Source: Isoetes taiwanensis (lineage: Eukaryota > Streptophyta > Lycopodiopsida > Isoetales > Isoetaceae). Taken from it: a stretch of 64,000 bases of DNA. Within the stretch, counting starts at the first letter, position 1. Every line of letters starts with the position of its first letter. Position numbers and translations under genes: made by a program. Below, in pieces: positions 3,274 to 64,000 of this stretch. A model generated the notes under the pieces. That model saw only the letters and a program-made list of their open reading frames with translations, was not told where the DNA came from and did no database searches. The stretch spans positions 2,242,896 through 2,306,895 of the forward strand of contig JAJEKV010000085.1 in NCBI GenBank assembly GCA_021234155.1. Direction: 5' to 3'.

Positions 3274-3285
3274 GAAGTTAGGGCC

Positions 3286-20950: not shown

Positions 20951-22264
20951 AACTAGATGGATTGTATAGGAGCATAAGAAGTTTCAATAAAAGTATATTG
21001 CACAACATGCACCTACATGTCATTATTTGAAGAGGGAATAATGGAATAGAATCTATCCAATCTAAATCACATAAGAGAGAATATAATAAAGTTCATAACA
21101 AATAGAAAGTGAGGGTTAATAAAGTAGAGCTTATGTTTGCCTTTGAATGTCAAGGTGATTGGATGCCGAAATTTAAAAGTTTTCCAGATTTCAAGGTGTA
21201 AAATTTGTTGATAATGTATCAGACAATATAGAATGCAAGAACGCAATAAAGAACGGGCAAGAATACAATGGAATGCAATAATACAAAGGGAGTTGAAGCA
21301 AGCACTAACTTGCCAGGTTTTCCATGCAACGCCATGCACCGGCAACCTAGCAAAACTTTATTGAATAGAAAAGTCTACGAGTATGGACCATGCGAAATGC
21401 AAAATGATAGATTCAATCTCTGTCTCCACTTCAATTCAATCTCTATTTGAGTTGATTCTGATGCCGTTATTGTAGAATGCAGAAGAAAAATTCCTGCCCA
21501 CCTTCTGTGAATTATGGAAATGTTTCTTGGTTTTGTCTCTATTTTTCCTTTTCCTTTTCGAATATTGCCTTTTTATTATAGATTATTTAATTCTTTGCTT
21601 TTTGCTCTAATGTATATAAATAATGCTATATATTAACTATTGGCTTTAATATACTATTTAAGGGTTTTTGAAATCCTTGTCCTTATTTTCAAGGTTTCTT
21701 ATTTTTTTGCCCTTTCAAAGGAAAGGGCATTTTTTTATGCCACCCTTATTCATAATGGCTATAATTTTTGGGTTGTCCCTAGGGAGGCACACACTTGCTC
21801 ATGTGGGTTTTTAGCATATTCTAGGTATATGCTAGTATATGCCTAAAATATTCTAAGAACCTCTCCAAACTTGCTATTGTCGTTGATATACTGGTCACCG
21901 CTATTGATGCGCGAGGGCGGCGCTTGCTCTTCATACCATGTAACTGAATGCTCAGTTTTTGTGTGCCGAGGAAGAACCACACTAAATCCAATCATCGAGA
22001 GCCCAAATCGAGATACATGCGCCTGAAGCTCCAACAGATCTGTGAAATGAAATGGGAGCAAAATGACAAAATATGGCATTAAGGGTTTCAACAAGAACCA
22101 AGAGAGCAGAGATCCCTATTTGAAGATTTAGATTAGGATTATTTCACACTTCCAGAAGGAGGCTATTGAAGTGACTCTTAGGCATGGAAGTCTGGCATTG
22201 CAATGGCAATCTTGGGATAATTTTCCGGCGAGTTTTTCCTTCCATCTCCTTTAGATTTTAGGGC
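20951..22264. other. No gene recognised
   Basis: AT-rich sequence with no convincing frame, repeat pair or RNA gene on either strand. The flanks are LINE fragments. Confidence 0.5.
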
Positions 22265-22703
22265 TTTCAGATATTTGCTTTATGCATGTGGTATCATTGA
22301 GGCATCACCAGTATGCAAGTTGTATTGTTCTTCCATTCTTAAGCGACTGATCCTGGACACATTCTGCCAAGCGACTGATATGCGCGTCAATCTGGCCAAG
22401 ACTAAGGTGGTTTTCATATCATCTTCACGTCAGCCGAAGGTCCCCTCCTTCAGTTACCAAGGCCAGAATGTGGAAATTGCATCCACATACAAGTATTTGG
22501 GAGTGGAGTTTCCTTCTACTATATGCACTGGGACACATCCATACGACTACGAGTGACGGCAGGCTGGAAGGCACTATATGCAATGCAAAACAATAGTTAT
22601 AGAGCGGAGTTGTATGATTGGGCCCATCAGTCACACCTATTCAAGGTCTTAGTAGAGCCTGTCCTTTTATACGGGGTGGAAGCATGGGGTCCAGTAGTAT
22701 CAC

Positions 22704-23483
22704 TTGCTATATGACTTGGAGCAGGTCCAGAAAGCCTTCTTGGTACGAGCACTAGGGGTGAAGTCAACAGTCCCATATCAAATTCTACTGCAGGAGACAG
22801 GATTCTTGCCTCTTCAGAGGACGGCCCTTGATCGCCACATTGTCTATTTTCAGAAGGTGGTCAATATGGACGATGCTCGTCTCCCTAAACTAGCTTATAT
22901 CATGGCAATGGGGCCGCAGCGCCTCAAGGCATGCTGGAGGGAAAAGAGAGCTCAATGGATGGCTAGATGGAATGTGCAGGAGCACAGGTGCATACATCTG
23001 CAAACAGAGGCAGATCGCCATAGCTTGAGGCAATATCTTGACGCTTGCTTCCTCAGCAAGCTTTGGGATGCCAATGCCCTTGAACATGTCAAGATACCAC
23101 ACTACCAGCGCCACATAAATCCCACATTGGAACGAGGCCCGCAATGCTACCTGCGCACCCACTTGCCCATGAAAAGGCGCAGACTCATTGCTTCCATTCG
23201 CACAAGGGCACATCATCTTCGAATTGAGATGGGCAGGTGGATTGGTGAGCCACGCCAGGACAGGCTCTGTCAATGCTGCCACATGGGAGTCATTGAGGAT
23301 GAATCTCACACCCTTCAAAGTTGCCCAGCATATGATCAAATTCGGACCCGCTATGCTGAGTTGGTCAGGCCTGGCCAGTCGTTACATGTGACATTGAGCA
23401 CAGCATCCGTACGGGTGCTGGGATCATACCTTCAGGAGGTTATGGACATGCGAGATCAGCTATGTCCTCGGGCACACACTTGA
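22704..23483 (+). pseudogene. LINE ORF2 C-terminal domain, open for 259 codons
   Basis: The frame begins in LEQVQKAFLVRALGVKSTVP, continues through a basic helical region and HLRIEMGRW, and ends with a zinc motif CQCCHMGVIEDESHTLQSC (CxxC...H....C). It stops with TGA at 23483. The same order is seen in the 24.2-kb copy. The domain is the C-terminal RNA-binding part of LINE ORF2; the catalytic parts are absent. Confidence 0.8.
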
Positions 23484-24872: not shown

Positions 24873-26260
24873 TACAGAAAGTTAATTAAATATTGTGCTA
24901 TTCTCAACAATAGGGATGTCTAGTGAGTGACAACATGAATTAATTTGTCATTTGTCTTTCCAGTCCAATCAAAAACATTGCGTTAACTGATGGAAATAAT
25001 CTCCCTCCCTATTCATTTGTAGACATTGTTTCCATTCTTTTTCATACTAGAACAACTTTATATAATGTGAATGCTATGATCAAAATCGTTGAGCACATTC
25101 TTCACGAGAAAACTTGAGCATTTGAAGATGTTGTCTAAAAAAGGACATTTATTAGGGTTCTTTGAACTTTAAAACACTTATCTGGTCTTTCCCAAATTCG
25201 CGCGACATGACATAAATCATACCAAAGGATGCAAAATCCACTGCTCTATTCAACTATTTATTCGCCTCATCATATTGGAGGAATTGCAGATAGTTGCAGA
25301 GAAAATAACCAAATATAACATATTATTGTAAACTATATACATGTTCTTTTGGAAATTTTTAACATAAAAGATTAAAATGTAGATTCAAAAGCCATCTTGT
25401 TAGTTTTTATAGGAAGGAGGACGAAATCATCAATAACATATTTATTTAGATGAAGATGGCAACCACCATGCCTCAATCAATATGAAACAATACAGTTAAA
25501 AAAATGCAAACACAACCTCAGAGTATTGAAGGGCAATCCTTCATGCGCATCACATTATTTTGCCTTATCTTAAAGGGTCGAAGGCCTGTTTAAGGGTAGA
25601 CAGGCCATGAAAGTTGATCACTGGATGGGAGACATGGAATCTCAGTGCTTTTCTGATACTTGCTAATTTTGAGGAGAGCTGTAATACCAAGTTTTGACTT
25701 CGACCCCCCTCCCCCCCTCTTTTGACTTCGTCTCTGCATTGGAGGAGACCTTCCTGTTTAGATTAGATGAGGTACCTTCTTTTTCTGGCCTCGGAGGAAG
25801 AGAATCTCAATCAGAGACTTCCAATCCGCTCAAAGGATACAAAGTAATGTGTTCAATCGGCCTAACACCACCTATGATGATAGGAACCTGTAAACTCCCA
25901 GTTGTATTTGCAAAACATCCGTCAAGATATGAGACAAACAAACACAAATCCATCCCTTAAGGGCAAAGCTCAATACCTAACCGGGCTATCCTGAGCAAGA
26001 AAATCTCTAGAACAACGTCGATTGAGGATTTTGCTGCTTGTTATATTGGTCGCAGAAGTAGTATCGGTTGTCGAAGATGGTCGCCATATTACTGTAGCAG
26101 TCAGGGTCTGTCTCTTATTATTCGCTGTCTGTCCTTGAATAGTCAAATAATTAAATATAGCCCTCTAGGCCAATAAAGCACAATTTCATTAAAATGAGAA
26201 ATTTCGTGATTCCAATTAGGAACGAAAATCCTTTTTAGTCCATTTTATGCCAATTTTTTG
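24873..26260. other. No gene; possible 5S rRNA-like trace at 25600-25670
   Basis: Mostly AT-rich and non-coding on both strands. Around 25620-25665 the text ATCACTGGATGGGAGAC, followed by GGAATCTCAGTG, is reminiscent of the 3' half of plant 5S rRNA (ACTAGGATGGGTGACC, then GGGAAGTCC). That could be a 5S-derived SINE or chance. A plus-strand frame at 25694-25960 is not recognised. Confidence 0.3.
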
Positions 26261-26498
26261 AGCAATTATGGCGCCATTTAGAAAAAATATGCCTCTAAAA
26301 CGTCATTTATTGGCGCCATTAAAAATACTAACAGTGCATATAAAGAAGCTAAAGAAACACAACATCACAAAATTAGTTAAAAATTCCAAATTCATAGATT
26401 TGCATATCAAAAAATTTGCCACAACAGGCAAGGACTCGAAAGAGAGAGTCTGTTTACAAAAGTATTATTGTACAATTTAAATACCAATCACACAAAAT

Positions 26499-28075
26499 TC
26501 AGGGTTCCGCATCAGGATCAGGTTCCACATCAGGATCAGGTTCCGTATTGCCAGGGCCATGGCTAGAAGAAGCAACCATAGGATCTCCCTGAAAGCTCTC
26601 GAACGCTGTGGCAGTGAAATTGGGATCACTAAGAAAGTCCAGATCGAATTGTGTGTTCTTGATCACATCATAGTCCACATCGGGTGGAGCTTCGGGCATC
26701 TCTGGATTAGGTGGATCTACAGCTTCTTCAACAACATCACCTTTTGTCTCTGTAGGAACTGCTGCGATGATAGGATTCAGTAGGCGGTCAAGCCTATCCC
26801 TATCAAGAATTCCCCTTAGGCACTCCTGCTTAACCGGGTCACTTTCGAACACAATGCAAAATCTCTTATTCATCAATGAAGCCCGGCCAAAAGAACCACA
26901 AGAGAAGTAATCAAACACCCCTGTTCCTGGCGGTACCATTTTCTGCACGAGGTAGGAGCATGTGGCAGGCCCCAACTGGTTTCTCATGATTATGTCCCCC
27001 GCAAGCCTTGCCACCAGACTGAATCTGCCGTTGCGAGCTTTCGCCATAGCCTCGGTCTCCCCCTCTTCGCCTTCTTCAGGGGCACAGAACCGGTGGCGCT
27101 CTTGAGGATGATCGTTGAAGGGGAATTTGAGGTCAATTTCATCGACAGGGATGACCTGCGCAGTGGCCTGAATTTTTGTGGCGCATACACTAGTGCATGG
27201 ACATCCCGAACTCCCCGAGGCAGCGGATTTTTGTATTCGCCCTCATACGTGCCAATAAAAACTCGATCTGGAATCCGGATCATCCAACACGATGAAATCA
27301 AAAAGTTATGCTCTGGCCTTGCAAAGACCACTATCCAGAAAGAATCAGCTGTGGTGTTCTTTACAACTGTGTTAAAAAAATTAGATAGTGTGGTTTTGTC
27401 CCACATTGGAAATATGCCTCTAGTATCCAGGGCAATCAAGGATACTGGTACAGGAGTGCATCTAACTTGCCCCCATCGTGCAATCGGTTCAACTTTGCAA
27501 CGAAGTCTTCAAGATCCTCTCTCGCAAGACAAAGATTGCGTATGAATCTTGCCAAGGCTGGTGGCACGTTACCGAAAATGCCTTCCTTGCCCACTCCAGT
27601 TTCAACCCACTTACTATGCAAGGTCGGTATCCTCGAAGCCCGGCACGGCAGCACAGAGATTAGTGAAGGATTTGAACTTCCTCGGAAAATTATCCTTCAC
27701 ATATTCAAAAATCTCCTTCTTCAAGAAAGATATGGATCTTAGTGTCTTTGCCCTTGTCTTGAAGAAGTGCTTACATGTATAATCATTGGTGACCTTGACG
27801 AAGGTCTTCTCATCCAGCACTTCCTGGAACAGAACCCGACAGTCTTCGTAGTCAAGCCCCCTCATGCACCTCAGGTAGGTCTGACTGAAGTAGTCAGATT
27901 CTTTTGCCCAGTTACAGGTAATAGTTTGACCCTTGTTGTCTTTTAGCTTGCCAGATTTCCACAAGTTCCATAGGGACATGAATAACTGGAAAATATCCTC
28001 TGGCATGAAGACCCACTGGTTGAAATCTTTTGGATGCTTACCACGCATGGTAACTTCAGCCAAAGCCAGATAACG
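26499..28075 (-). pseudogene. Beta-class DNA amino-methyltransferase-like domain
   Basis: Downstream of the 28196-28076 intron the frame (28075-27614) gives YLALAEVTMRGKHPKDFNQW and LRCMRGLDYEDCRVLF. After a frame change it gives GVGKEGIFGNVPPALARF, then IALDTRGIFPMWDKTTLSNF (27450-27380), FWIVVFARPEHNFLI and VRDVHALVYAPQKF. In a third frame (27047-26499) it gives MAKARNGRFSLVARLAGD, VPPGTGVFDYFSCGSFGRA and RFCIVFESDPVKQECLRGIL. The last two are the SAM-binding motif I and motif II of beta-class N4/N6 methyltransferases. In motif IV the expected DPPY/SPPW reads DTRG, so catalysis is doubtful. The acidic tail ends in repeats of PDPD. It ends at TGA 26501-26499. Confidence 0.6.
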
Positions 28076-28196
28076 CTGGAAACAACAAGAAGTTAGCCTT
28101 GAACATTTAATGAGCAAATGGCGCCATGGCGCCATTTCCTCACTAAATGGCGCCACGGCGCCATTTGCTAATCTTGCCAACAATTACAATATGTAC
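28076..28196 (-). other. 121-bp intron carrying two palindrome copies
   Basis: The donor AAA|GTACAT and acceptor TTGTTGTTTCCAG|CG join SEPYK to RYLALAEV in phase 0. Two palindromes (28116-28137 perfect, 28145-28166 with one change) lie inside. An intron this short with two palindromes is unusual. Confidence 0.65.
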
Positions 28197-28439
28197 TTTG
28201 TATGGTTCTGAGCGTGACTGCCCGCGTCCCGATGGATCAGGCTTCCCGCATAGAGCATATTGCTGCCGCAGGTGGGTTATGTTATCAATGAAGGGCTCTT
28301 TGAAAATAGTTTTCGCAGTGATATCATTGACTTCACAACTGAGCTGCAGGCATTCCTGTTCGTTGACTGTGCCAGATAACACTCGGCAATTCCATTGAAG
28401 ATAAATCTTTGACATTTGCTCTTGGGACTTTGTTGTGCT

Positions 28440-28645
28440 GAGTCTTCTACATACAAGCTGAGCAGCCATAACTGAATGATTGCCATTCACTATATAATAG
28501 TGCATCCCCATGAGGTCATCCTCGGTTTTCCAAGCGACCCGGTTTGTTTGTGAGGGGATTGAATGGAATCACATCAGCGGAGGAACACCGGATGTGGGTC
28601 TCTCTCGAAAGGACTCCACTAACGCTTTGACGTGCTCCATATTCC
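28440..28645 (-). pseudogene. ParB/Srx-like domain (GNHS motif)
   Basis: Two blocks fit the ParB N-terminal/sulfiredoxin fold: VKALVESFRERPTSG (the 'hV..L..Sf' helix) and, after a frameshift, a segment with VIPFNP, N-K-P, WKTEDDLMG and YYIVNGNHSVMAAQL. GNHS corresponds to the GxHR nucleotide-binding motif of ParB, with Arg replaced by Ser. The two blocks are in different frames, apparently because of single-base changes near 28575 and 28540. Confidence 0.55.
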
Positions 28646-28802
28646 TTGGTCTAGATGTCGATTTGCTGGCCCTTGATATAGTTTGAACACGCCTATTTTT
28701 TTTTTATAAATGTGACACCTAGAGGAAACAGATGCCTTGGATCGTAAAATTTTTTTGCGTGTATTCTTTTGCCAGCTTTTTCCTCCTCTCGACCTTTCCA
28801 CC

Positions 28803-29417
28803 TTAAGATTTGCAGGCACCTCTAGCAAGTCTTTGAGCTATTCTTAATGTGAGCTTTTTTAACAGCTTCTTAATGGGGACCCTTTTGGCCGGTGTGTCCG
28901 CAGGATCCTGGCTATGCCTTGGGCTTGGAGGTTCACCACCACTTCTAGGACTTCCAGCAGGACTTGGAGTCCGAGTCGCTCTCCTTTGTTTTTTAGGTGT
29001 CCTCTCCTTCTCAGAGGTCTCCAGCCTGTGCTTCTTCTTCTTTTTCCCATCCATTTCCTCTGTCTCCACTTCCTTTCCCTCCTTTTCCTGTCTCGCATTT
29101 CCTTCCTTCTGCCCCTTGCCTTCCCTATCCTTTTCTTTCCTTTCCCTTTTCTTTTCCTTCTTTTCTTTCTCTTCCTTCTCTTCCTTTTCCTTCTCTTCCT
29201 TCTCTTCCTTTTCCTTCGCTTGCTTCTTTTCCTTCTTTTCCTTATCTGGATCTTTGTGATCTTTTCTCTTAACTTTCCTCTTGCTCGCCGCCTTTCCTTC
29301 CTCAGTTTCCTGGCCAACATCCTCAGTAGAAGATGAGGAGTCTTTGTCGGCTGCAGGTGTCTCCTTAGTTTGTCTTGTCTTCTTCTTGCTAACTGTTTTT
29401 AGCCAGGCCGTGTCCAC
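28803..29417 (-). CDS. K/E-rich charged segment of the ParB-methyltransferase-like protein
   Basis: This frame is open for 204 codons. After VDTAWLKTVSKKKTR-like text it becomes a run of KEKEEKEEKEK-type repeats, then a Ser/Pro-rich part (RTPSPAGSPRSGG) and a basic end (KKLLKKLTLRIAQRLARG). It looks like a flexible, nuclear, highly charged linker and could form a single alpha-helix. The plus-strand Ser/Phe/Leu-rich frames here are shadows. It lies directly upstream of the ParB-like part. Confidence 0.5.
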   Translation of the reverse strand: MDTAWLKTVSKKKTRQTKETPAADKDSSSSTEDVGQETEEGKAASKRKVKRKDHKDPDKEKKEKKQAKEKEEKEEKEKEEKEEKEKKEKKRERKEKDREGKGQKEGNARQEKEGKEVETEEMDGKKKKKHRLETSEKERTPKKQRRATRTPSPAGSPRSGGEPPSPRHSQDPADTPAKRVPIKKLLKKLTLRIAQRLARGACKS

Positions 29418-29984
29418 AATGGTGGGTAGTTTCTGCTGGGCTAATGCCTTGACAACGAATGAAGGCGAAGTTTTTCACTTCGCTCATCCGATTCGCGAAG
29501 AATCATAAAGCCCCTCAAGATTTCTTGTGGGCCTTTGATGTCGGCTTCTTCAAAGTTTGTTGTAATGACGGCAGCGTATCAAAATTTTGCTTCTTCACCG
29601 AACCAGCTACATTTGCAATACTAGCGACATTCTACGGGGATCATAAAACTTCCAAATCCACATAGTAGACAATTATTCTCCGCTTCAAAGTATCCTCACG
29701 ACCACCCGGATCCAATCCTCGCGACCGCTCTTGGCAACCATCTTCATGTGGACCAAGATACACGGCCGGGTAAATTCCTACAAGCTTCGGTCTGTCTCCC
29801 TTATAAGGAGGCAGAGCTCTCTTCTGCAGCCTCCTTTTCGAGCCTCAGAGTAGAGGGGCTCACCCGCGATTACTTCCATGCACCAAGCATTGCCTATCGG
29901 CGATGATAGTCCGGGTCGATTGAAATTGTGTTTCCGCCTTGCGCAACATAGCCGCAACAAAGGGGCATCGGAACAAAGAGGCAT

Positions 29985-30550
29985 CGATAAATAGTTTTAA
30001 CAAGCAAAGTGCGGCATAATCGGTTGGGTAGGCAAATGGTGCCGCGGGTGCCATTTGCATCCGAGTCCAAATGCATAAGCACATGGAGGCGGTTCGTATG
30101 CCTTTCCCTGCGTTTGGTCGCAGAGGCCTCCACCCAGTCCAAACCCCTCCCCTTCGCAATATTCGAGGAAGATGGTTCGAAGGAGAGTGGCTCGGACTGG
30201 GTGGAGGCACCTGCGACTCGTAGGAGAGTGCACTACAGAACGCAACACAACGAGAAGCGAGCTACCTCAATGCTGATACATATGTGACTGTCTCTGTCGT
30301 TTGCTTAGTCGTCTGGTTTTAACAAGCAGGCAGACCAGATGACTAGGCAAGGCGCCATTTGCATCCGAGTTCAGTGCATAAGCAAATGGAAGCAGTTCGA
30401 ATGCATTTCCCTGTGTTTGGTCGCAGAGGCCTCCACCCAGTCCGAGCCCCTCCCCTTCCAAATATTCGCGGAAGATGGTTGGAAGGAGAGTGGCTCTGAC
30501 TGGGTCGAGGCACCTGCGATTTGTAGGAGAATACATATGCGAATGACTCC
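29985..30550 (-). repeat. Two tandem units of about 320 bp, each with a hairpin
   Basis: Unit 1 (about 30000-30240) and unit 2 (about 30318-30545) share GCATCCGAGT, AAATGCATAAGC and CCTCCCCTTC. Unit 1 contains inverted arms CCTCCACCCAGTCC (30127-30140) and GGACTGGGTGGAGG (30194-30207). Unit 2 has a similar but imperfect pair (30430-30446, 30494-30510). All lie in the first intron of the minus-strand gene. Open frames here in all directions come from the inverted repeat symmetry. Confidence 0.7.
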
Positions 30551-30579
30551 ATTAGTGTTAATGGACTGGACGCAGATAA

Positions 30580-30930
30580 AAATGGCGCCATGGCACCATT
30601 TGCCAACAACAAGTCCCAAATGTATTCTAATAAACATCAAATAGCGCCATGGCGCCATTTGCCAACAACAAAGGCCCTATGGTAAGCTAATAGACATCAA
30701 ATGGCGCCATGGCGCCATTTGCCAACAACAAAGCCCTATGGTAAGCTAATAGACATCAAATGGCGCCATGGCGCCATTTGGTAGCAACAAGACCCTAGAG
30801 TAAGCTACCAGGCATCCTAAAGTAAGCTAAGACTCCTAAAGTGCACTCAGGCATCCAAATGGCGCCATTTGTCAACTAAAAGACCCTAAAGTGGTTACCA
30901 GGCATCTAAATAGCGCGGTGGCACCATTTA
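30580..30930. repeat. Palindrome array, about 60-bp period
   Basis: Copies of the 22-base palindrome containing ATGGCGCCATGGCGCCAT lie at 30580-30601 (one change), 30639-30660 (one change), 30699-30720 (perfect) and 30758-30779 (perfect). They are separated by TTGCCAACAACAA, CCTATGGTAAGCTAATAG-type spacers. Shorter remnants lie at about 30858 and 30909. The array is in intron 1 of the minus gene. Confidence 0.88.
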
Positions 30931-30963
30931 GCCCAAACAAAACAATGCAAGTAGATGACATAC

Positions 30964-31030
30964 CTGTCCCTTGAGGTGCGCTAGCCGCTGTCTCCACATT
31001 CTGAGGAGCTCCAGAATTGTCGATTTCCAT
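30964..31030 (-). CDS. Exon 1 of the ParB-methyltransferase-like gene
   Basis: An ATG at 31030-31028 opens 22 codons plus one base. The exon ends at G followed by GTATGTCATC, a strong plant donor site. The same ATG and donor context is visible in the second copy near 63341-63270. The corresponding acceptor was not pinned down. Confidence 0.55.
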
Positions 31031-31988
31031 TTCGAGCGCCTTGAATTTGGTCCGAAAACTGGTGTGTATCTAGATGTGTTGAGGCGCTGAACTGTGGGGA
31101 AATGGCGCCAGAAAACACTAAAAACAAAGGACTCAGAAGGGTTGCTTTAGGCGCTGGGCGCTAGGCGCTGGCGGCTAGGCGCTGGGCGCTGGCGGCTAAG
31201 GTCGAGGCGCTAGGAGCTGGAATCGAAAACGAAAAAACCGAATGAGAAGCTTCAGAAAAACAATTAGGCATAACAAACTTTACGCCGGGCGCCATTGCAC
31301 TGTACCACAAAGCGCCAACTAGGGCCCGTGGCTGTCCAGGCGCCCATGCCCGTGGCGGTCCAGGCGCCCATGCCCGCCCATGCACGTGGCGGTCCAGGCG
31401 CCCATGCCCGCCACAATTTGAATTTTGAAATTCGAATATTTCCCGCCCTAACGCCTGCCCGCCCAAATTTGAACATAAAATTCAAAATTCCCGCCCGCCC
31501 GAAATTAACATAAAAGTCAAAATTCCCACCAGAATTGAAATTTGATTGCCACACTGTCAAATTTGAATCGTCCGCTTTTAAAATTGTACTTTGCATTTAA
31601 AGCTCCCTCTTTGTCACCGTGCTCCCACTTAATGCGACCATGCCACGATCATGCGACGTTTTTGCGTGCCTGTTCAGCGCTTCGAATCCGCTTTGTTCGT
31701 CTCGGCTTCCGCGCATAAAGTAGCGCTTCTTTTCTTAAGCCTAAGCGAGAAACTTTGCAAAGCGCATCGCGTCTTTGTCGCCAGCGCTTTCTTCTTGGCG
31801 CTCACAGAAATCCCAGGTGATTCTTGGCGCTTTCTTCTTGGCGAATCCTTCTTGGCGCTTTCTTCTTGGCGAATCCTTCTTGGCGCTTTCTTCTTGGCGA
31901 ACTCTTCTTGGCTCCATTCTTTTTTATTAATATATCTGCTGGGATCAGCTTGATTTTCTGCTCCATCTATCGCCCGTGACATACCACT
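31031..31988. promoter_or_regulatory. Bidirectional promoter region between the two divergent genes
   Basis: The 958 bases separate the two start codons. They contain GGCGCT repeats (31150-31220), imperfect repeats of GGCGGTCCAGGCGCCCATGC (31310-31410) and TTCTTGGCGCTTTCTTCTTG units (31815-31910). No clear TATA box was assigned. Shared control of both genes is inferred from the arrangement only. Confidence 0.45.
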
Positions 31989-32008
31989 ATGGATCTATCT
32001 AATATCAA

Positions 32009-32648
32009 GTAAGTCCACTGTTTCTGGTATGAATTCTGTTCTATTGCTGCCATGTGTATAGCGTGTTCAAATGCTGATATGAATGCTGCTAGGAAACTAA
32101 GAACCTTGGTTTCAATTGCAAAGTTGGCATGGGGTGCCCATGTTATGCATGCCTGCTACAGCAATGGGAGCAAGAATGCATAACATAGGCACCTCGTGTA
32201 GATTTTGTGATGGAGCTAAGCCAAATCGCCCCATGTGACCAACTTGGATCAAATGGCGCCATGGCGCCATTCTATTCCAAATACACCCTTAAAATGGTGT
32301 GTTGGTCTTAATGGCGCCATAGCGCCATTCGATTGAAAATGGTGCACGGCTGAAATGTAAATTTGAAGCCAAATGGAGCCATGGCGCCATTTGGTCGAAA
32401 TGGTGCACTTGGATCAAATGGCGCCACGCCATTTGTTCCAAATTCACACCTATGAATGTGCCATAGGTGTGAATTTGATCAAATAACCATGGCTTATTTG
32501 ATCCAAGTGCACTGCCGTTCGATCAAATGGCAAATTTAGACCAAAATTTATTCTTTTGTACTAAATGGCACCATTTTCGCTTATTTATTGCTTATTTTTC
32601 GTCTATTTCATATGTTCTAAAAAGTGTCGCCTTGCTTGAATGAAACAG
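32009..32648 (+). other. Intron 1 of the DUF7869-like gene with palindromes and a nested hairpin
   Basis: The donor AATATCAA|GTAAGT and acceptor TGAAACAG join in frame (AA|G). Palindromes lie at 32251-32272 and 32371-32392 (each with one change) and 32311-32330 (with one change). A nested inverted repeat lies at 32403-32512: outer arms GTGCACTTGGATCAAAT and inner arms CAAATTCACACCTATG (32439-32454 and 32462-32477). Confidence 0.68.
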
Positions 32649-33266
32649 GTTCAATTTTCCCCCTGCACAACCTATTCGCCTGAAGGACAATTGTTGCCCT
32701 GGGACATATTTTGAATAGAACCACTCTTCATGGGAAGGAAATAGATCCTTCAAATGTAGCTATTGAGGTCACTGAGTCCGTGGATCCCATCGATCGAAGC
32801 TTCCAGCCCCATGAGGGGGGCGATAACATTGGTGAAGCAAGAGGGCACATTCATTCAAAGGCCTAAGAGGGATGTAAAATAAAATGAGTGCCCCTCAAGT
32901 GAAGATACGTCTTCGAGATCCCTGAATTTGCCCTCTTCAGCAGAGGGATTCATCTAGTAGTACACCATCCGGCCAAGAGTCCCACCGGACATCGGTTTCA
33001 CTGCTCCCGTGGGTGAACCAAGCAACACAGCAACAAATGAAGAAGACGAGATCATAGTAGAGGAGATTGGAGGTCATGAGAATCTAGCTGCCCGTCTTGG
33101 TCTCATGTTGTTTAAGCCTGAAGATGAGACAGTCTACTACTCGCAAACAGATCTACTAGGTTTGCCATGCTACATTCTTCATTCCTGCATTGGATCTAAA
33201 TATTCGGAGGCGAATATAGTCTTTAGTGATCCTCAGGATGCTATAGACGATGAGTTCTTGGGTGTA

Positions 33267-33517
33267 GGGCAAAAGTATGCTGGTGGGTATCAAAAGCATG
33301 CGTCCGGACGCATGCTGACAGCACTCATATAGCACCCCATATGGCAGCTTGTTTAGGGTGTTACTGGTACTAGCAAATGGTAATTAGGTAATCAATAGAA
33401 ATATGTAACAGCTCCAATGAATGACAAGTGGAATACTATGATAGAATAGTACATCTAGGGTGCTGATCTAAGTGCTGGGGCCGCGTTTTTTTGATACCCA
33501 CCAGCATACTTTTGCCC
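33267..33517. mobile_element. MITE, 251 bp, 29-bp terminal inverted repeats, TGTA flanks
   Basis: GGGCAAAAGTATGCTGG and 12 further bases (33267-33295) are exactly inverted at 33489-33517. TGTA flanks both ends (33263-33266, 33518-33521). It lies in the DUF7869-like coding region. Removing the element and one TGTA joins the upstream frame (33009 onward) in phase with the downstream frame (33540 onward), so the site was coding before insertion. No protein is encoded. Confidence 0.85.
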
Positions 33518-34374
33518 TGTATCAAAGGTCGGGCTTTCAGTGGGTAACATAATAGATCCAACGGGAAACCAAAATATCAGGTCATGTCATGCTTGTGCTG
33601 AGAGGCCTATAGCTAACAGTCTAGTAACCTGGGAGACCCGTGATGTTTTGCTTCATGATGGTAGGACAGTTTCACAACATTTACAAGCTCGAGCTGCTCT
33701 CGAACAGGATGACTTAGAAGTTGAGTGCTTGGAAGCTGATGTTGAGAAGCAATTCAAGAGGAAAAAGAAATATACATATGTGAAGAGGGTCGGAGGAAAC
33801 CAAAGGGGATAGCAAGGAGGAGAGGATGTGCGCCCAAGTCAATCAAGAGTGCTCTAAAATCAACATGCCGCAAGGACGAATGTGTCAAAAACTGAGCCGA
33901 GCAAGTATATGCCTTAAGAAAAGAATTTTATTCTCAATCAAGCAAAGGCCGTGGATTACGCTTGTTTTTGATGTGTTGAGTGTAACTTATAATCGGGCAA
34001 TGGAGGCGAAAAGTAGTGGTCTCCTCGGAGTGGAGTGTCACATTCGCATGGCGCCGCGGGCTTTAGGAGTTGCTCACCACGCTTTTATAGTTGGAGGAAG
34101 AGGTTCGAAAGTTAGGTGGAAAACGGGCGAGCATGGTAATACAGGCTCTAAGAAGCCTAGATCCGCGGACACTAGCTACGTAAAAGTGTGCTTGATACCT
34201 TCATTAGTGAGAATGCGAGAGCATTCCACATAGAAGCAAAAAAAAAGGATGATATAAGGGAGAATGTTCGAAACTTCCTTCCATTCTTAATAAGAAGAGC
34301 ATACATAAGGAAGTGGGTGCCGTGGTGGAAGAATTGACAGAAACGAGTGTAACCTTGCCCTCTTTTTACAATAT

Positions 34375-35304
34375 TTGGAAGAAGGAGTTTCCGGGGACGC
34401 CGCCATAGCAAAAATACAAAGATTCTCCAAGTGTAACATATATGTAGTCATCAAGCGTAAATTGGAAAGAACAAAAGATACAAGGGAGATGCGAACCTTT
34501 CAATTCAATCTACGGGCACATATGTTGGAACAACGCTCCTGTAGGAGTCAATATTGGCATTGGCGTGCATTATCACATCGTTCGGCAGAAAGTCACCTTT
34601 GCATAATACATGATAAGATGGATCAGGTCAAAACACTCACACCAAGAAGTCACCATCTCGCAAAGTCTGTTTGGAGAGGAGATCGCTTGAAGAGCAGCTT
34701 GACAGGAGCATTGACACATGGTCATGGTGGACGGGCTTATGGCCATTTCTCTCTTGATCTTTGGAAGGATGACTCAAACTTTCATGTTGGATCACTTTCT
34801 AGGATCCTACACTATCTTGAGTTGCCGGAAGAAGACAAGTGTGGTGATCTGTGTGGAAGCAGAACTACAGATTGCAAATTGATGCAAGCCCTAAAAGATA
34901 CTCGACCACTGCAGCATAAGCTAGCACAGACACAAGAGAAGATGCCTTCATCTTCTAGTGCCAACTTAGAAGGCTTCAATCCTCTTCCTCGAAATCTCTA
35001 CTTACAGTTGGATAATGCATCTGGTCAAAATAAAAATAGATATGTGTTCTCCTACCTCTCTTATTTGACATGGCTTAAGGTATTCGATGAGATTCAGGTT
35101 GGCTTCATGATGGTTGGGCATACTCATGACGATATTGATGCATTGTTTGGGAACTTTTCGACGTTAATGAGTTCATCGGATGCTCTAACTTTGCCCTCGA
35201 GTTGCTTTACTTGTTTAGCAAGTGCAATGCAAAGTCTCCTGCTCCATATTTTGTGGATGAAGTTCCGGATTGAAAGGCTTTGTCAAGGGATATATCCCCG
35301 ATAA
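34375..35304 (+). pseudogene. Core domain of the DUF7869-like protein (309 codons open)
   Basis: The conserved core is unbroken here: RFSKCN at the start, a spaced H..Q..CRSQYWHWRALS block, HDKMDQ, a His-rich linker (LTGALTHGHGGRAYG), QLDNASGQNKNRYVFSYLSY and MVGHTHDDIDALFGNFSTLM. The end of the frame (35220-35304) is already out of phase with the family. Confidence 0.72.
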
Positions 35305-36151
35305 AGGCCAACGCCTAACAGCCATACCGACCCATTGCTATTCCGATTTAAAATGGATGGGAAATGGCCCATTATGCAATATAAGATGCGGCCAACCCAT
35401 AAAGAGTGGATTCCGTAAAAAGGAATAAGAATGTGGAAGGAGGATGAAAATGGTGAGCCAACGCTACCAACGGGGGTGCCTAAAAATATCCCTCCAAGGA
35501 AGACATTGAAAGATCTCCCCGGCTCGCGCAGAAAAGATCAGCAAGTACATAGCATTATGGAATTCCTTCGCAAAAATCAAGAAGATAGCGCGGTTTGCAC
35601 GACAAAGACAAAGCAACTATGGATTACTTCGAACGAGATTCTTGTGTGTTTGGAAGATGTATCTCCGGGATCGACCTCAAAATGATAACTTTTGGTTGCG
35701 CATAAGGCAAGAACCTCTACAAGTGCATTTACTCCGTAGGTCGATGAAGCCACTGCTTGTAAGACCTTTGCCTACGACAGGGCTGCCAGATGGGCGCTCG
35801 TTGCCTATGGATGAGTTCGATCCTCATGCACATGTTACTTAAAGGTATATTTGTTTTAGTCCGACCTGAAGACAATGAAACTCCAACGTGGTTGGGCTTT
35901 ACAGAAGAAGATGCCATCCTAGATCCAGAGTCTACCAATTATGGTCACATTTATGTATCATGGTGGATGCCTCGTTGGTCGTGACTATACAGTTGCTTAA
36001 CTAAACGCTACATCCCAATCCATCATCAGATCCATCAAGGTATGAGAAGTTAGATGTCATATATTATGCATGGGATGCAAATGGCAAAAGTCCAAGACTC
36101 TTCGTGATTCCAAAATACATTGTTGACATGTGGGGACATAGCATTAGTTAA

Positions 36152-36690
36152 AAGCTCTCAATCTCACCATGTTCTCGATAATTATGTATGTAATTTCTTT
36201 TGCTATAATACTTAAGCATTTTGGACAATTAATACATTGTCGATACATCAATTAGCTTTCATTATGCTTATACTAACATCCTTACATCTTTTATAATAGG
36301 TGTTTAATACACATCATTACATCTGATGCACACATTATTGATGGCATACATATAATTTAGATGCACATATTATTGATGGCATTATAGTCGATGATTCACT
36401 CATCTTCAATCCCTCGCTAACGGATCGATTCAGCTCATAGGCACGACGCTCGGAGAAGCCAAAGAAGATGGATCACAACACGAGTAAGGCCGTGGCAATG
36501 ACACTCGTGACCATCAGCTTTTGGATTGCAAGTAGGATCCAAATTTTAACTGCTTTTATGTATGCACCAACAATATCATTGTAGCTCATGGAGCAAAGAA
36601 TGGTCTCAAACCGATCTTCATACTCATAGATATTATAAGCCATGGGAGATGAATGACTTCTACCAATCGAATGGAGCTGCTTTTATAGTC
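36152..36690. other. 3' flank of the DUF7869-like gene, no gene recognised
   Basis: AT-rich. TGATGCACACATTATTGATGGCAT repeats once (about 36326 and 36360) as a short tandem duplication. No terminal inverted repeat to the left side of the two-gene element was recognised. Confidence 0.4.
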
Positions 36691-36691
36691 G

Positions 36692-36822
36692 CTGTAGAAT
36701 TATTGGTATAATACTTCAGCATTATTGGTATTATACGTGAGCATTATTGGTATTATACCTCAGCATTATTGGTATTATACTTCAACATTATTGGTATTAT
36801 ACTTCAACATTATTGATTCAGA
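36692..36822 (+). repeat. 22-bp tandem repeat
   Basis: About six units of ATTATTGGTATTATACTTCA with small changes follow each other. Confidence 0.85.
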
Positions 36823-36879
36823 GCTATAAATTCTTTTTACCTTGCTTTCACTTCTCACTTTTCACCTTGCTACTTGATC

Positions 36880-37395
36880 TTGATCCTTGCTTCTTGCTCC
36901 TTCATCTTCCTTGTTCCTTGATCTTCTTGCTACTTGATCTTCCTTGTTCCATGATCTTCTTGCTACTTGATCTTCTTCTTTGCTACTGTTGGATCTTGAT
37001 CCTTGTTCGAATCCTTGCTACTTCATTCCCCCGTGCTCCTTGCTACTTGATCTTGTTCCTTGCTCTTGATCTTGCTACTTGATCTTGTTCCTTGCTACTT
37101 GATCTTGATCCTTGCTTCTTGCTCCTTGATCTTCCTTGTTCCTTGATCTTCTTTGCTACTTGATCTTGTTCCCTTGCTCTTGATCTTGCTACTTGATCTT
37201 GTTCCTTGCTACTTGATCTTGATCCTTGCTTCTTGCTCCTTGATCTTCCTTGTTCCTTGATCTTCTTGCTACTTGATCTTCCTTGTTCATTGCATCTTGC
37301 TACTTGATCTTGATCCTTGTTCCTTGCTACTTCATTCCCGCAAGCTTCTTGCTACTTGATCTTGTTGCTTGCTCTTGAACTTGCTACTTGCTCGC
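36880..37395 (+). repeat. Degenerate tandem repeat CTTGCTACTTGATCTTGATC
   Basis: About 500 bases are built of CTTG, CTAC, ATCTTG and TTCC words with a higher-order period. A block around 37075-37150 recurs at about 37190-37270. Frames through it are artefacts. Confidence 0.85.
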
Positions 37396-37970
37396 CCTCC
37401 GTTCCTTGTTCGCCTTCTGGGTGATCCTTGCTTGCTTTTTGCAAATGATTGGACCCAATCCTCCATGGGCTACCTGTAAGGCCTTCTCCAAGCATGCCCC
37501 TGCATTCAGGCAGCCTAGAATGGATGAGCTATGGGACCATTTCTTGGAGTGGAGGTTGCGCCACAGTCCCACCAAGGAGCTTACAATGGAGTTGATCAAC
37601 TTCATTCTGAGCGATTTGATTGTGTTCATGATCCACCTGATGGAAATTAATCCATCCGAATGTTATAGGAGACTTGCAAATGAGGGGAATTCTTGAACCC
37701 CTCTTTATCCGACGAGATGCTACAAAGAATTGAGGCCTCTTTTCGTATGGGATATTTAGCACACTCTCCTGGATGCATACATATCGTAGTTCATTCATGA
37801 AATTTCTAAGGGACAGATGTATGGCCTTATTAGGGTGTACTACAACGAAAGTACAACGGTTTTGTGGAGTTGGGTCCGCTTCTTCCGTGGAGTGTCATCC
37901 CGTGGAATTACTTTTTCTAATGACTAGGTACCCCATATGGTGGGAAGAATCAGGGTCGGGAGGAGCATGA
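37388..37970 (+). CDS. Hypothetical protein, two frames, function unknown
   Basis: The frame 37388-37696 (102 codons) has non-repetitive composition from about 37440 on (MIGPNPPWATCKAF, RMDELWDHFLEWRL, LTMELINFILSDLIVF, SECYRRLANEG). A second frame, 37773-37970, gives FMKFLRDRCMALLG and could be the continuation after a frame change near 37690. I do not recognise it. It lies between the tandem repeats and gypsy element A and may be an additional transposon protein or a gag start. Confidence 0.35.
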
Positions 37971-37999
37971 GCTCTTGACTCCTAACCCGTGATGCATGG

Positions 38000-38838
38000 G
38001 TTAGACCTCGCAGCAAAGGGAAAGGGGAAGGGAAGGGGTTAGGAACCCGGGGAAGGTTACTAGGGACATACATAGTTCATACTTCGGTCTCTATTGTGTT
38101 TGGAAGTTGGTATATGATACCGCGGTTATTATGTTCTCTAAATATTCATGTATGTATGATACACGGTATCAAGTAGTCCCTGGCCTCCCGGCACAGACTA
38201 TTCATGCATACATGCACTGTGTCAAGCTCAAGGATCCTCTTTGCTACCCGGGTCGGCCATCAAAGGCTCTGCCAAGACCAGGCACCAGACCACGCAGCCA
38301 AAAGCCCGTGGGTCATTAACAAGAGGCGCCGCCGCACAAGTGACGGCCCGGCCACCGCCTCGCCAAGCCGTTGTCGGGTGATTCTAGGCACTTCAAGAGG
38401 CACCGCCAACATTCCTCAGAAATCAGGCCTCCTTCCAAGAGTCCAAGCACCGAGATCGCCGAGTGTCTATATTGGGCCCAAGGCCGCTGTACTATATATA
38501 TGAGTAGAGCTAGCACATGAGTTTTTAGATGAGTTTTGAGTCTTGTCTCCTTTCTTTTCTATCATTAGAGCTCATGTATTTTCATCATTGATATCAAGGA
38601 AGCTTATCATCTTTTCTCTCATTTGTTCTTTCTTCTTCTTCTTCTCTTCTTGCAAATCCAACTCTAACTCAACCTCAATATCCTCACTATACCGCTTCCC
38701 GGCCCAGCCAAGCACTTTCACATCTACCTTTCGGGACTCGAAACCGACTTATCCCACCTTTGGCAACACGAAAAGGCAAACCGTTAGGACCAAAGTGCTC
38801 AGCCCACATGGAAGAATTTGAGGCTCTAGCTGTCCTAA
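38000..38838 (+). other. Candidate LTR or leader of gypsy element A
   Basis: CTGTACTATATATATGAGTAGAG near 38485 looks like an LTR TATA box, followed by a T/C-rich stretch and TTC repeats (38620-38650) before the gag-like text. No second copy was found near 43.8-44.4 kb, and no standard primer site is visible, so this remains a guess. Confidence 0.3.
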
Positions 38839-44436: not shown

Positions 44437-46049
44437 TGTGACGCTCCCGGAATATATACGACCCTCGGACGTATACATACGGGGACTTTCCCCCCCCATG
44501 GCGACCATCTCACCATGAGCAGGGCCCTCCGTCTATTTCGGGCCATCTATGAAATGTGGCCCGAAGAAGGACACGGAGGGGTCATTCGGCCCACGCCTTC
44601 AATGGGACTCCTACGTCGCGGAAGCATGAATCCAAGGGTTAGCACACAAAGATGAATATATATAAATAACCACCACGGAAGGGTGGCGATCCATCCAAAA
44701 TACCAACGCATAGATCATGCATCTAATCCTAAGAAAACACCCAAACCCCGTGTTCTACCCCTGCTCGCCTCCGTGGGGATCGACCGACGGCCGGCCTCAA
44801 GAGATCACAGATCGAAGTCTTGGCATGGCGCTATCGGCATAGAACATTGGCTAGGGTTGTCCACTCCATCCGCTCTCCCCAGGCACACTTTGGTGATGGG
44901 TCAATTCATGCTATGGCTTTGCTATAGCCTTCCCGAGACGCAAACTCGTGGCATCACCCTCCGAGCCTACTCCGTGTTCATGACGCCTGTCCGATGAGGC
45001 AGGGCCGGGAAGCGCCCCTTCCGTAATCACAAAGGGTTCCATGGGTGAGCTAGAGAATACGCGTCGCATCACACCCCTCGCATCCGCATCTCGAATTTAC
45101 TCACCCTAAATCTACTCAAAGTGCAAGGTGCTCCATACGGATTACACCTTCCCACCCGTGGAGTGTCGTAACTCCATACCGGCCCTCTACGCGGACCGCC
45201 ATCGCCCTAGCCCACTCAGGAGTCTCGTGAGCCTTGTATGCTCATGCAAGACCCCACCCCTCATGTCACCACACTGTTCCTTTGTCCGGGTGCTAAGCCG
45301 CACCATAGCATCTAGGACCCGGGGGTTCTTGTGCACAGCCGCATCTAATGGGACTTTACAGTATGCCATCTAGGAGCATACTACTTTACACCTGCCTCGA
45401 GGCCTCTACCCCCGCAACCCGCTTCGTGAGTCGATCAAACAAAGAACCAACAATCCATCCTTTCGTGAGTAAGAACCGTAATTGAATATAAAGAGAACTT
45501 GTTTGTACAATCAAGGGTTAGTTTCTATGATTGAATTACAAAGAGAACGTAGAAAAGACGGACACAACCAAGTGTTAACTAGAATTCACATAGCCACCTA
45601 CCTGAATTCGGGCCGACTCATTCCCATGGGGCTTCCATCTCCTCGGGCGGTTGAAGATTCACCGCGGGCTTCACAGGGACGACCGGTATGGTGGTTCTCT
45701 CCAGTGGTTGATGGCTCCAGCCCCGGCCTTCCTTGGTCGACATCTTTAGGAGTCAATCCCAGTGGATAGGGGTCAAGTTGGCATCCAAACTTGGCAACCC
45801 CCCATGCTGCCCAATCGACAAAGGGGGCAGGTGGCTTCCTAATTGGTAATTATCCTAATTTCCTAGGTTATAGGTTATTATTATTAATGTGTTAAATTAG
45901 CATAGCTAATTTAATCCTTTGTAAGGTAACCCCTAGGTTGCAATTAAGTTCCCATACCCCCATGGTAGTGTACCTTTAGGGAGTGACGCGGCTTGTATTT
46001 GTAATGCGTCCCGTGATAGTAGACCGTGATAAATACGCGGAACGCCACA
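44437..46049 (-). repeat. Element F 3' LTR
   Basis: It matches 55871-57490 over its length. On the minus strand it starts TGTGGCGTTCCGCG, next to the polypurine tract, and ends at AGAGT. The two LTRs differ mostly by 1-3 base indels at C/G-rich sites. Confidence 0.9.
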
Positions 46050-60633: not shown

Positions 60634-63600
60634 CGGTGGGTTATGTTATCAATGAAGGGCTCTTTGAAAATAGTGTTACAGTATCATTGACTTCCTGGCG
60701 AGCTGCGGGCATTCCTGACCGTTGATTGTGCGGATAACGCACAAACTTAATTCCGTTGAAGATAAATCTTTGACATTTTGCTCTTTGAGGACTTTTCTTT
60801 GTGCAGTGCTTCACCGCACAAGCTGAGCAGCCATAAGCGAATGATTGCCATTCACTATATAATAGTGCATCCCCATGAGGTCATCCTCGGTTTTCAAAGC
60901 GACGGTTTGTTTGTGAGGGATTGAATGGAATCACATCGTGGGAGTGAACCTTTGGATGTGGGTCTCTCGAAAGGACTCCACTAGCGTTTTGGCGTGCTCC
61001 ATATTCCTTGGTCTAGATGTCAGATTTCTTTGGCCCTTGATATAGTTTGAACCGTCTATTTTTTATAAATGTGACACCTAGAGGAAGCGGATGCGGTGAT
61101 CGTAAATTTTTTGCGGTGTATTCTTTCGGAGTCTTTTCCTCTTGACCTTTCCACCTTAAGATTTGCGGGCACCTCTAGCAAGTGTTGAGCTATTCTTAAT
61201 GTGAGCTTCTTTGGCTCGGCTTCTTAATGGGGACCCTTTTGGCGGTGTGTCGCGGGGATCAGCTATGCCTTGGGCTTGGAGGTTCACCACCACTTCTAGG
61301 ACTTCAGCAGGGACTTGGGTCCGAGTGGCTCTCCTTTGTTTTAGGTGTCCTCTCCTTCTCGGAGGTCTCCGGCTGTGCTTCTTCTTCTTTTTCCCATCCA
61401 TTTCCTCTGTCTCCACTTCCTTTCCCTCCTTTTTCTGTCTCGCCTTTCCTTCCTTTGCCTGCCGCCCCTTACCTTTTCTTCCCTTTCCTTTTTTTCTTTT
61501 CCTTTTCTTTTCCTTCTTTTCTTTCTCTTCCTTCTCTTCCTTTTCCTTCTCTTCCTTCTCTTCCTTTTCTTCGCTTGCTTCTTTTCCTTCTTTTTCCTTA
61601 TCACGGATCTTTGTGATCTTTTCTCTTAACTTTTCTTGCTCGCCGCCTTTCCTTCCTCAGTTTCTGGCCAACATCCTCGATTAGAAGATGAGGAGTCTTT
61701 GTCGATTTCGCAGTGTCTCCTTGGATTGGTCTTGTCTTCTTCTTGCTAACCTTGTTTTTAGCGGTAGTGTCCACAATGGTGGGTAACCCTGTTGGGCTAA
61801 TGCCTTGACAACGAATGGCGAGTTTTGACTTCGTTCATCCGATTGCGAAGAATCATAAAGCCCCTCAAGATTTCTTGTGGGCCTTTGATGTCGGCTTCTT
61901 CAAAAGGCTGTTAATACGGCAGCGGCCTTGACCTTGCTTCTTTGCCCGAACCGGCTACATTTTGCAATGCTAGCGGACATTATGATTGGGATCATAAAAC
62001 TTCAGGTCCACATAGTAGACAATTATTCTCTGCTTCAAAGTATCCTCACGGACCACCGGATCAATCCTCGCGACGCTCTTGGCAACCATCTTCATGTGGA
62101 CCAAGATACCGGGGCGAGTAAATTAAATCAAGTTAGGGGTGTCTCCCTTATAAGAGGCCCGAGCTCTCTTCTCGCGATCTCCTTTTCGAGCCTGTAGCGG
62201 TAGAGGGCTCACCGCATTACTTCCATGCACCAGTGCACGTCTGCTCGGCATGATAGATGCGGTGGGATTGAAATTGTGTTCGCCGCGTAACATACCGCAA
62301 CAAAGGGGCATGGTAACAAAAGAGGCATCGGTAAATGGTTTTAACAAGCGGTGCGAACAATCCGGTTGTGGTAGGCAAATGGTGCAAAATGTGCCATTTG
62401 CAGACCGAAGTCCAGTGCATAAGCACATGGGGCGGTTCGTATGCCTTTCCATGCGTTTGGTTCGGGAGGCCTCACCAGTCAAACCCCTCCCCTTCCCAAT
62501 ATTCGAGGAAGATAAGTTGGAAGGAGAGTGGCTCGAGGCGGGTGGAGGCACTGACTTTCGAGGGAAGTGCACTACGTAACATAACACAACGCCGACTACC
62601 CATACATATGTGACTGTCCTTTGCTTAGTCGTCTGGTTTTAAAAAGCGGGCAGAACCCGGATGACTCAGGCGGCGCCATTTGCATCCGAGTTGGTACATA
62701 AGCAAATGGAAGCAGTTCGAATGCATTTCCACTGTGTTTGGTCCGAAGGCCTCCACCGGTCGAGCCCTCCCCTTCCAAATATTCGCGGAAGATGGTTGGA
62801 AGGAGAGTGGCTCTAATCCAGGCACTACGATTTGTGGAAGAATACATATGCGAATGACTCCATTAGTGTTAATGGATGGGCCTTGAATAAAAATGCGCCA
62901 TGGCACCATTTTAACAACAAGTCCCAAATGTATTCTAATAAACATCAAATGCGCCATGGCCATTTACTTAACAACAAAGGCCCTATGGTAAGCTAATAGA
63001 CATCAAATGGCCATGCCAAGCCATTTGACAACTTAACAAACCCTATGGTAAGCTAATAGACATCAAATGGCCATGGGCCATTTTAGTAACAACTAAGACC
63101 CTAGAGTAAGCTACCGGGCATCCTAAAGTAAGCTAAGACTCCTAAAGTGCACTCGGGCATCAAATGCCATGGCCATTTTGTCAACTAAAGACCCTAAAGT
63201 GGTTACCGGGGCATCTAAATGGCCAGGTTGGCACCATTTAGCCCAAACAAAACAATGCAAGTAGATGACATACTGTCCCTTGAGGTCGCTTAGCGGCCCT
63301 GTCTCCACGATACGAGGAGCTCGAATTGTCGATTTCCATTTCGGCTTTTGAATTTGGTCTGAAAACTGGTGTGTATCTAGATGTGTTGAGGCTGAGCGTG
63401 GGGAAATGGCCCGAGAAAAACACTAAAAACAAAGGACTCGAAGGGTTGCTTTAAAGGGCGCTATTTGGCGGCTACTAATTTAAGGCTAAGGTCAGGCGCT
63501 AGGAGCTGGAATCGAAAGCGAAAAACCGAATGAGAAGCGGAAAAAACAATTAGGCATAACAAACTTTGGTACTGCGTGTACCAACTAGGCGGCCAACTAG

Positions 63601-64000
63601 GACCCATGCGAATCCCGCCCATGCCATGCCCGTGAAGTGGCTGTCGTGTCCCATGCCGCCCATGCGGCCATGCGCGTGGTCCGGCCCATGCCCATACAAT
63701 TTGAATTTTGAAATTGAATATTTCCCGCCCTAACCTTTGCCGCCCAAATTTGAACATAAAATTCAAAATTCCGCCCCCCCCAATTAACATAAAAGTCAAA
63801 ATTCCACCCGTAAATTGAAATTTGGCGCCCACACATCCCAAATTTGAATCGTAAAGCTTTTAAAATTGTACTTTGCATTTAAAGCTCCCTCTTTGTCACC
63901 GCCGTGCTCCCCTTAATGCGACCATGCCACGATTTTGAACGTTTTTTTCATGCGGTTCGAGCGCTTCGAATCCGCTGTTAGTCTCGGTTGCCCCGCTTCG
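60634..64000 (-). pseudogene. Second, partial copy of the ParB-methyltransferase-like gene (5' part), many indels
   Basis: From GGTGGGTTATGTTATCAATG at about 60636 the sequence is collinear with 28270-31730 of the first copy to the right edge. It includes the ParB-like GNHS region (about 60850), the charged segment (61100-61650), the hairpin units (62.2-62.85 kb), the palindrome array (62.9-63.2 kb), exon 1 (about 63341-63270) and part of the promoter region. Palindromes are shortened here, for example ATGGCCATGGGCCATT in place of ATGGCGCCATGGCGCC. The C-terminal methyltransferase domain is missing because the copy begins inside the exon after the GNHS block. In places this copy keeps frames that the first has lost, for example around RIDPVVREDTLKQRI. 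Confidence 0.85.

Follow-up and report, generated by a model that had tools for sequence, protein, structure and literature searches.

A DNA transposon of Isoetes taiwanensis pairs a DUF7869 gene with a ParB-methyltransferase-like accessory gene and an array of dyad sites

A 64,000-nucleotide stretch of the Isoetes taiwanensis genome (contig JAJEKV010000085.1, positions 2,242,896 to 2,306,895; C1095:2242896-2306895 in our genome searches and called the window here) contains two divergent genes with a common palindrome in their predicted introns. One encodes a DUF7869 protein, the other a protein reminiscent of ParB and of DNA methyltransferases. This locus raises the question of whether the two genes belong to one mobile element and, if so, what the second gene does for it. 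Analyses of the copies showed that the locus is a DNA transposon of 11-14 kb with short inverted repeats and 4-bp target duplications, present in many copies in the genome, in which a presumed transposase gene stands beside a second, accessory gene. The accessory protein may well be a DNA-binding factor directed at its own element.

The genome searches covered 1,658,258,908 bases in 1,110 contigs. The original 22-mer palindrome had 957 exact matches, its reversed control none. Fourteen loci, the first places listed by this search, were read, and 11 of them, some with further stretches added, align with the window in both gene arms. At the other three (L010, L014 and L018) the alignment covers little beyond the ends. 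One locus, L011, is a decayed copy that has lost much of the accessory gene. Six complete copies of the subfamily found in the window, subfamily A, are 11,203 to 14,000 bp long. All six carry AAGCACAATTTCATT at both ends, with a single mismatch at one of the 12 ends. Five are flanked by an exact 4-bp target duplication (TATA, AGAA, TATA, TAAA and CTAT), and in the sixth the duplication agrees at three of four bases. The window copy breaks off at 38166, approximately 149 bp short of the right end as placed on the C78 copy. The first-pass annotation had suspected a mobile element with both genes, which is borne out by the common ends, the target duplications and the divergent pairing, and had reported that the left arm occurs a second time, which is also confirmed. 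The extent that it gave, 26262 to 36151, is too small, since the element spans 26176 to 38166 in the window. It had also named, as an observation that would speak against such an element, an independent occurrence of the genes at loci without shared boundaries; we looked for this and found common ends, 4-bp target duplications and divergent pairs instead.

The predicted start codons of the pair, at 31030 (minus strand) and 31989 (plus strand), are 959 bp apart, as annotated. The genome was searched with the ParB-like exon and with the DUF7869 core; in each case 150 candidates were scored, of 2,897 and 11,403 respectively. Between the two sets of 150 listed places, 37 pairs lie at most 20 kb apart, versus 0.55 by chance. 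Divergent orientation was found in 36 of the 37 pairs, and 31 of those 36 are spaced 4.4-6.9 kb. Of the 150 listed DUF7869 places, 114 have no listed partner and may include single-gene elements; both lists end at 150 places and some copies are decayed, so that no count of single-gene elements follows. Short repeats occur between the two start codons, GGCGCT-rich at 31150-31220 and TTGGCGC-rich at 31821-31912. The comparable region of a second subfamily, B, contains GGCGCTTC repeats at element positions 4651-4792.

The palindrome noted earlier in the introns of both genes was found there in the left as well as in the right gene. A perfect 22-mer palindrome as the site was superseded after subfamily B had been read: the site is a 22-bp dyad, AAATGGCGC-N4-GCGCCATTT, with a gap fixed at 4 bp. 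Subfamily A commonly has AAATGGCGC-CATG-GCGCCATTT. In subfamily B the gap reads CGCT, AGCG, ATTG, AGTG, GGGT or ACCC (four kinds when either strand is read) and is always 4 bp long. Among 158 half-site pairs with gaps of 0-30 in ten elements, up to three mismatches being allowed, 83 have a gap of 4, and the next most frequent gaps, 5 and 25, account for eight pairs each. With up to two mismatches, 5-14 sites per element were counted in seven A copies, six in the complete B copy, and five and four in two shortened derivatives; the window copy has ten. None was found in the 45.6 kb of the window outside both copies or in 20 dinucleotide shuffles of each element. The sites of A and B occupy three corresponding introns: the one that separates the ParB-like exon from the middle exon, which has not retained them in every A copy, and the first intron of each of the two genes, accessory and transposase. 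Of the 48 gaps below 200 bp between neighbouring sites, 31 measure 26-30 or 58-62 bp; in A much of this regularity is accounted for by a 59-bp unit duplicated in tandem. A gap within the dyad that is constant in length but not in its letters is what a dimeric DNA-binding protein would need, although it does not prove that there is one.

The accessory gene encodes a lysine/glutamate-rich N-terminal region, a ParB-like part and a methyltransferase-fold part. The likeness to ParB is one of motif and order: the segment NPEHVRKLCKSFAEDPHPVFTPADVVPF ... YVINGNHSVSAAQLV ... LSDLDLLQLSVDVND is ordered like ParB N-terminal domains, and its succession of a helix, the 'VINGNHSVSAAQLV' box and a second helix is reminiscent of the ParB box of the ParB/Srx domain (PF02195), to which it gives no statistically sound match. 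In an hhalign comparison with 120 PF02195 proteins the ParB box was the best segment (score 19.7; eight controls, 10.5-17.4). With tblastn, the ParB-like part of L031 gave no match in phages or plasmids and that of L034 just four matches with E values of 4-9. A sequence search of the PDB with the ParB alignment returned 14 matches, none of them ParB and the best within the lysine-rich part. With reservation, the product of this exon can be called ParB-like, by motif and order.

Because several weak tests agree, the other part of the protein likely has the fold of N4/N6 (PF01555-type) DNA methyltransferases, the fold returned by a structure model of L013. Of the ParB-methyltransferase gene proposed at first pass, the methyltransferase half is thus upheld as a fold, and ParB stays an unproven resemblance. 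Amino-methyltransferases have (D/N/S)PP(Y/F/W) as motif IV and FxGxG as motif I. The accessory protein resembles the beta class (RsrI, CcrM, MboIIA) in its likely fold and in having motif IV ahead of motif I, but does not keep their DPPY and FxGxG. At the catalytic DPPY position we found DTRG in subfamily A and DARQ in B (NARQ at one B locus), and most of the copies read have FSCGS or FSGGA as motif I. In the phage methylases compared, DPPY is intact. From the replacement of DPPY in two old subfamilies it follows that the accessory protein is probably no active methylase, and the earlier idea that the element marks its DNA by methylation does not agree with the motif in either subfamily. No relatives of the accessory protein were found at E ≤ 1 (0 of 7,381 candidates, among 5.8 billion proteins), and an NCBIfam scan gave nothing relevant. 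Phage methylases considered as ParB fusions were rejected in the two cases checked, where Pfam reports a methylase without ParB.

Subfamily B is represented by three loci whose ParB-like exon shares 54-57% identity with that of the window. Its complete element is 11,657 bp long, with an ACAA duplication and the related inverted repeats AAGCA[GA]AGTTTCATTAAAGTTGGAA; over 209 codons, its transposase core and that of the window share 83% identity. In both genes the share of synonymous differences between A and B amounts to 0.73-0.92, near saturation, so the two genes have probably long been associated; an exchange of accessory genes between the two subfamilies, also considered, is unsupported for the same reason. 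The nonsynonymous share rises from 0.12 for the transposase core to 0.32-0.35 for the ParB-like part and 0.36-0.43 for the middle and methyltransferase parts, so that the accessory gene probably evolves faster than the transposase gene. Within B it is under purifying selection: the ratio of nonsynonymous to synonymous rates (dN/dS) is 0.12-0.23 in the ParB-like part (243-246 codons) and 0.17-0.25 in the middle part and the start of the methyltransferase part (200-321 codons). This summary leaves out pairs with saturated dS and high values on few codons.

Derivatives without most of both genes were found at L018 (4217-7135; 2,919 bp) and L014 (3409-6450; 3,042 bp), and one at L010 starts at 6333 on the minus strand, its right end not having been found at that locus. 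The members of this family of approximately 3 kb have two clusters of dyad sites and, where longer stretches align, an identity of 83-92%. What L018 and L014 have in common with subfamily A is 147 bp at the left end, 140 bp at the right end and short stretches around ends and sites, together with approximately 165 bp, at 70% identity, with which the second transposase exon begins. They are flanked by target duplications (TATA at L018, TTTT at L014) and were presumably moved in trans.

The blocks HDKMDQ, QLDN..NKNR and VGHTHDDID named at first pass are all present, in a frame that matches PF25273. DDE/DDD transposases combine an RNase H-like fold with three acidic residues; in an alignment of 20 DUF7869 rows, some of them partial, the aspartate is nearly invariant in IIHDKMD and invariant in QLDN and GHTHDDID. 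The DUF7869 protein is presumed to be the cut-and-paste transposase of the element. Relatives in other genomes number 36, and DUF7869 is unnamed in the literature searched, in which subscription journals were mostly outside the scope. The coordinates of all features are given in Table 1. For intron 1 of the accessory gene the donor was placed at 30963, and the acceptor position was not assigned. In the window copy a small nested insertion interrupts the transposase gene; all 11 other copies with alignment at this place lack it. The CTTGATCTTGCTACTTG-like tandem repeats of the right arm vary in length across the other copies.

Table 1. Features of the transposon and of its second, partial copy in the window (positions counted from the first nucleotide of the window).
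Feature	Position	Strand	Basis or remarks
Subfamily A transposon, copy in the window	26176..38166		Ends of copies; right ~149 bp absent
Left terminal inverted repeat	26176..26204	+	26 of 29 bp identical to the right end of the C78 copy
Methyltransferase-fold part, accessory gene	26499..27508	-	Window copy frameshifted; motif IV DTRG, motif I degenerate
Part of middle exon, accessory gene	27614..28075	-	Frame; splice site by eye; homologous frames
Predicted intron, accessory gene	28076..28196	-	GT/AG ends by eye; dyad sites 28116, 28145
ParB-like exon	28197..28568	-	IVNGNHSVMAAQLV; frame, genome search, profile comparison
Lysine/glutamate-rich N-terminal region, accessory protein	28803..29474	-	Frame translation
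Dyad-site array, intron 1 of accessory gene	30580..30929		Sites 30580, 30639, 30699, 30758, 30908
Predicted first coding exon, accessory gene	30964..31030	-	Clear GT donor at 30963
Region between both predicted start codons, presumed shared promoter	31031..31988		Read from sequence
Predicted first coding exon, transposase gene	31989..32008	+	Identical in 3 of 3 copies checked
Predicted intron 1, transposase gene	32009..32648	+	GT/AG ends by eye; dyad sites 32251, 32309, 32371
Nested small inverted-repeat insertion	33267..33517		251 bp, ends GGGCAAAAGTATGCTGGTGGGTATC, TGTA duplication
Frame with DUF7869 core of presumed transposase	34309..35304	+	PF25273 match, E 1.5e-34; alignment
Tandem repeat array, right arm	36865..37393		7-33 bp repeats, CTTGATCTTGCTACTTG-like
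Second, partial copy of accessory-gene arm	60635..63996	-	84% identity over 3.5 kb

Elsewhere in the window, direct repeats of 1.6 kb at 44452-46049 and 55887-57490 are 88% identical and 11.4 kb apart; they are possibly the long terminal repeats of one retroelement. Frames at 3274-5690 and 22221-23483 resemble non-long-terminal-repeat retrotransposons (endonuclease, reverse transcriptase), as judged by eye from the translations.

ParB-methyltransferase genes in DNA transposons have been published for algae. According to the available part of that report, Sola1-1_Ec32 of Ectocarpus, like the Isoetes element as far as the description allows a comparison, is a DNA transposon of more than 10 kb with a ParB-like and N4/N6 methyltransferase gene on the strand opposite to the transposase; unlike it, it is 21.5 kb long, resides in a brown alga and encodes a predicted methylase, and no site array is described in that part (PMC12477816). 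Sola elements are defined by 4-bp target duplications and terminal inverted repeats of at least 11 bp (PMC10741241); the Isoetes element has 4-bp duplications and repeats of such length and is compatible with Sola in its ends, while DUF7869 is the one family named for its presumed transposase. Fungal DNA transposons carry TET/JBP genes and thus likewise a DNA-modification gene, but enzyme and host differ (PMC12730594, as far as available). The literature searches, several of which gave capped lists, yielded no land-plant example of such an element. Compared with the algal elements, the land-plant host, the degenerate enzyme and the conserved site array are new.

VANDALs are Mutator-type transposons. 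According to the accessible text on VANDAL21 of Arabidopsis, the transposon-borne accessory protein VANC21 recognizes and binds a short motif. Tandem repeats that contain it are found in the VANC21 and VANB21 introns as well as upstream of VANA21, and VANC brings about a loss of DNA methylation over the whole of its own element (PMC5735166). The dyad sites, in predicted introns, likewise form arrays in non-coding regions of their own element. Motif binding and loss of methylation have been demonstrated for VANC21; for the Isoetes protein they are proposed. Self-targeted anti-silencing is favoured here because the layout, an accessory gene with intronic motif arrays, is the same in kind as that of VANC21. 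Which protein binds the sites, and what the binding does, we infer as follows. It is somewhat probable that the accessory protein is a self-targeting DNA-binding factor that is VANC-like in action. It would be a dimeric, sequence-specific binder of AAATGGCGC-N4-GCGCCATTT, the dyads of which flank the presumed shared promoter in intronic clusters, and would act in cis on its own element and in trans on gene-less derivatives. The most likely outcome would be protection against silencing, with expression kept on, and the next most likely one help in building the transposition complex. A more tentative proposal, which we rather doubt, is that in a land-plant transposon a prokaryote-like ParB-methyltransferase has lost catalysis and become a factor that counters silencing by binding parS-like sites, the dyad arrays within its own introns; it would then match VANC in function but have an independent origin and other components.

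Several points weigh against a self-targeting accessory factor. The sites were scored in elements that bear the pair and in derivatives, so that they may go with the transposase and not with the accessory gene. The 14 loci are a biased sample, being those that the palindrome search listed first, and one complete B element was read. The ParB-like part has no Pfam ParB hit with hmmscan at E values up to 10, the probability in the PF02195 profile comparison is 1.5%, with a score little above the controls, and a structure model of this part was poor: Foldseek matched nothing to it at E ≤ 0.001, and none of the 42 rows is a ParB entry. The methyltransferase model of L013 is of low confidence (predicted local distance difference test, pLDDT, 45.7). 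The PF01555 match of one B piece reaches 17.3 bits against a cut-off of 26.7 (E 0.0047), and a Pfam methylase match is lacking for subfamily A and for the other B pieces. In B, the end of the methyltransferase part has a dN/dS of 0.77 (71 codons); in A the values are 0.31-0.51, and 0.88 for A_win/A_C223 (41 codons), the higher values in A being expected if many A copies decay.

Other explanations assign the sites or the protein a different role. If the transposase bound the dyads as internal, enhancer-like sites and the accessory protein helped to build or aim the transposition complex, derivatives such as L014 and L018 would be expected to retain what is needed for movement, and these complete 3-kb elements do retain ends and sites and little else. 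The sites are, however, internal, mostly intronic and away from the ends, and DUF7869 proteins have no known tie to such sites, which were not looked for in the 36 relatives elsewhere; we consider this explanation unlikely. Marking of the element by an active N4/N6 methyltransferase, the reading of the first pass, would agree with the fold and with the methylase predicted for the Ectocarpus protein in the available part of its description (PMC12477816), but is improbable in view of DTRG, DARQ or NARQ in place of DPPY and of FSCGS or FSGGA in place of FxGxG in most copies. We give just as little weight to the palindromes working as intron hairpins in the RNA or as sites of a host factor: they lie within predicted introns and their 4-base gap fits a hairpin loop, but the letters of the half-sites are conserved across subfamilies beyond mere pairing, and the sites are kept in derivatives without most of both genes. 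Two immobile neighbouring host genes are practically out of the question, an explanation for which we found no evidence and which is refuted by the common ends, the target duplications and the many copies.

Few systems, to our knowledge, have shown at the molecular level how transposons escape silencing. Here both the protein and the 22-bp site are defined, and the simple rule of the site, a fixed 4-bp gap with variable letters, allows a direct test in a seed-free vascular plant. The finding would carry ParB-methyltransferase accessory genes from algae into land plants and suggests that such genes can act without methylating.

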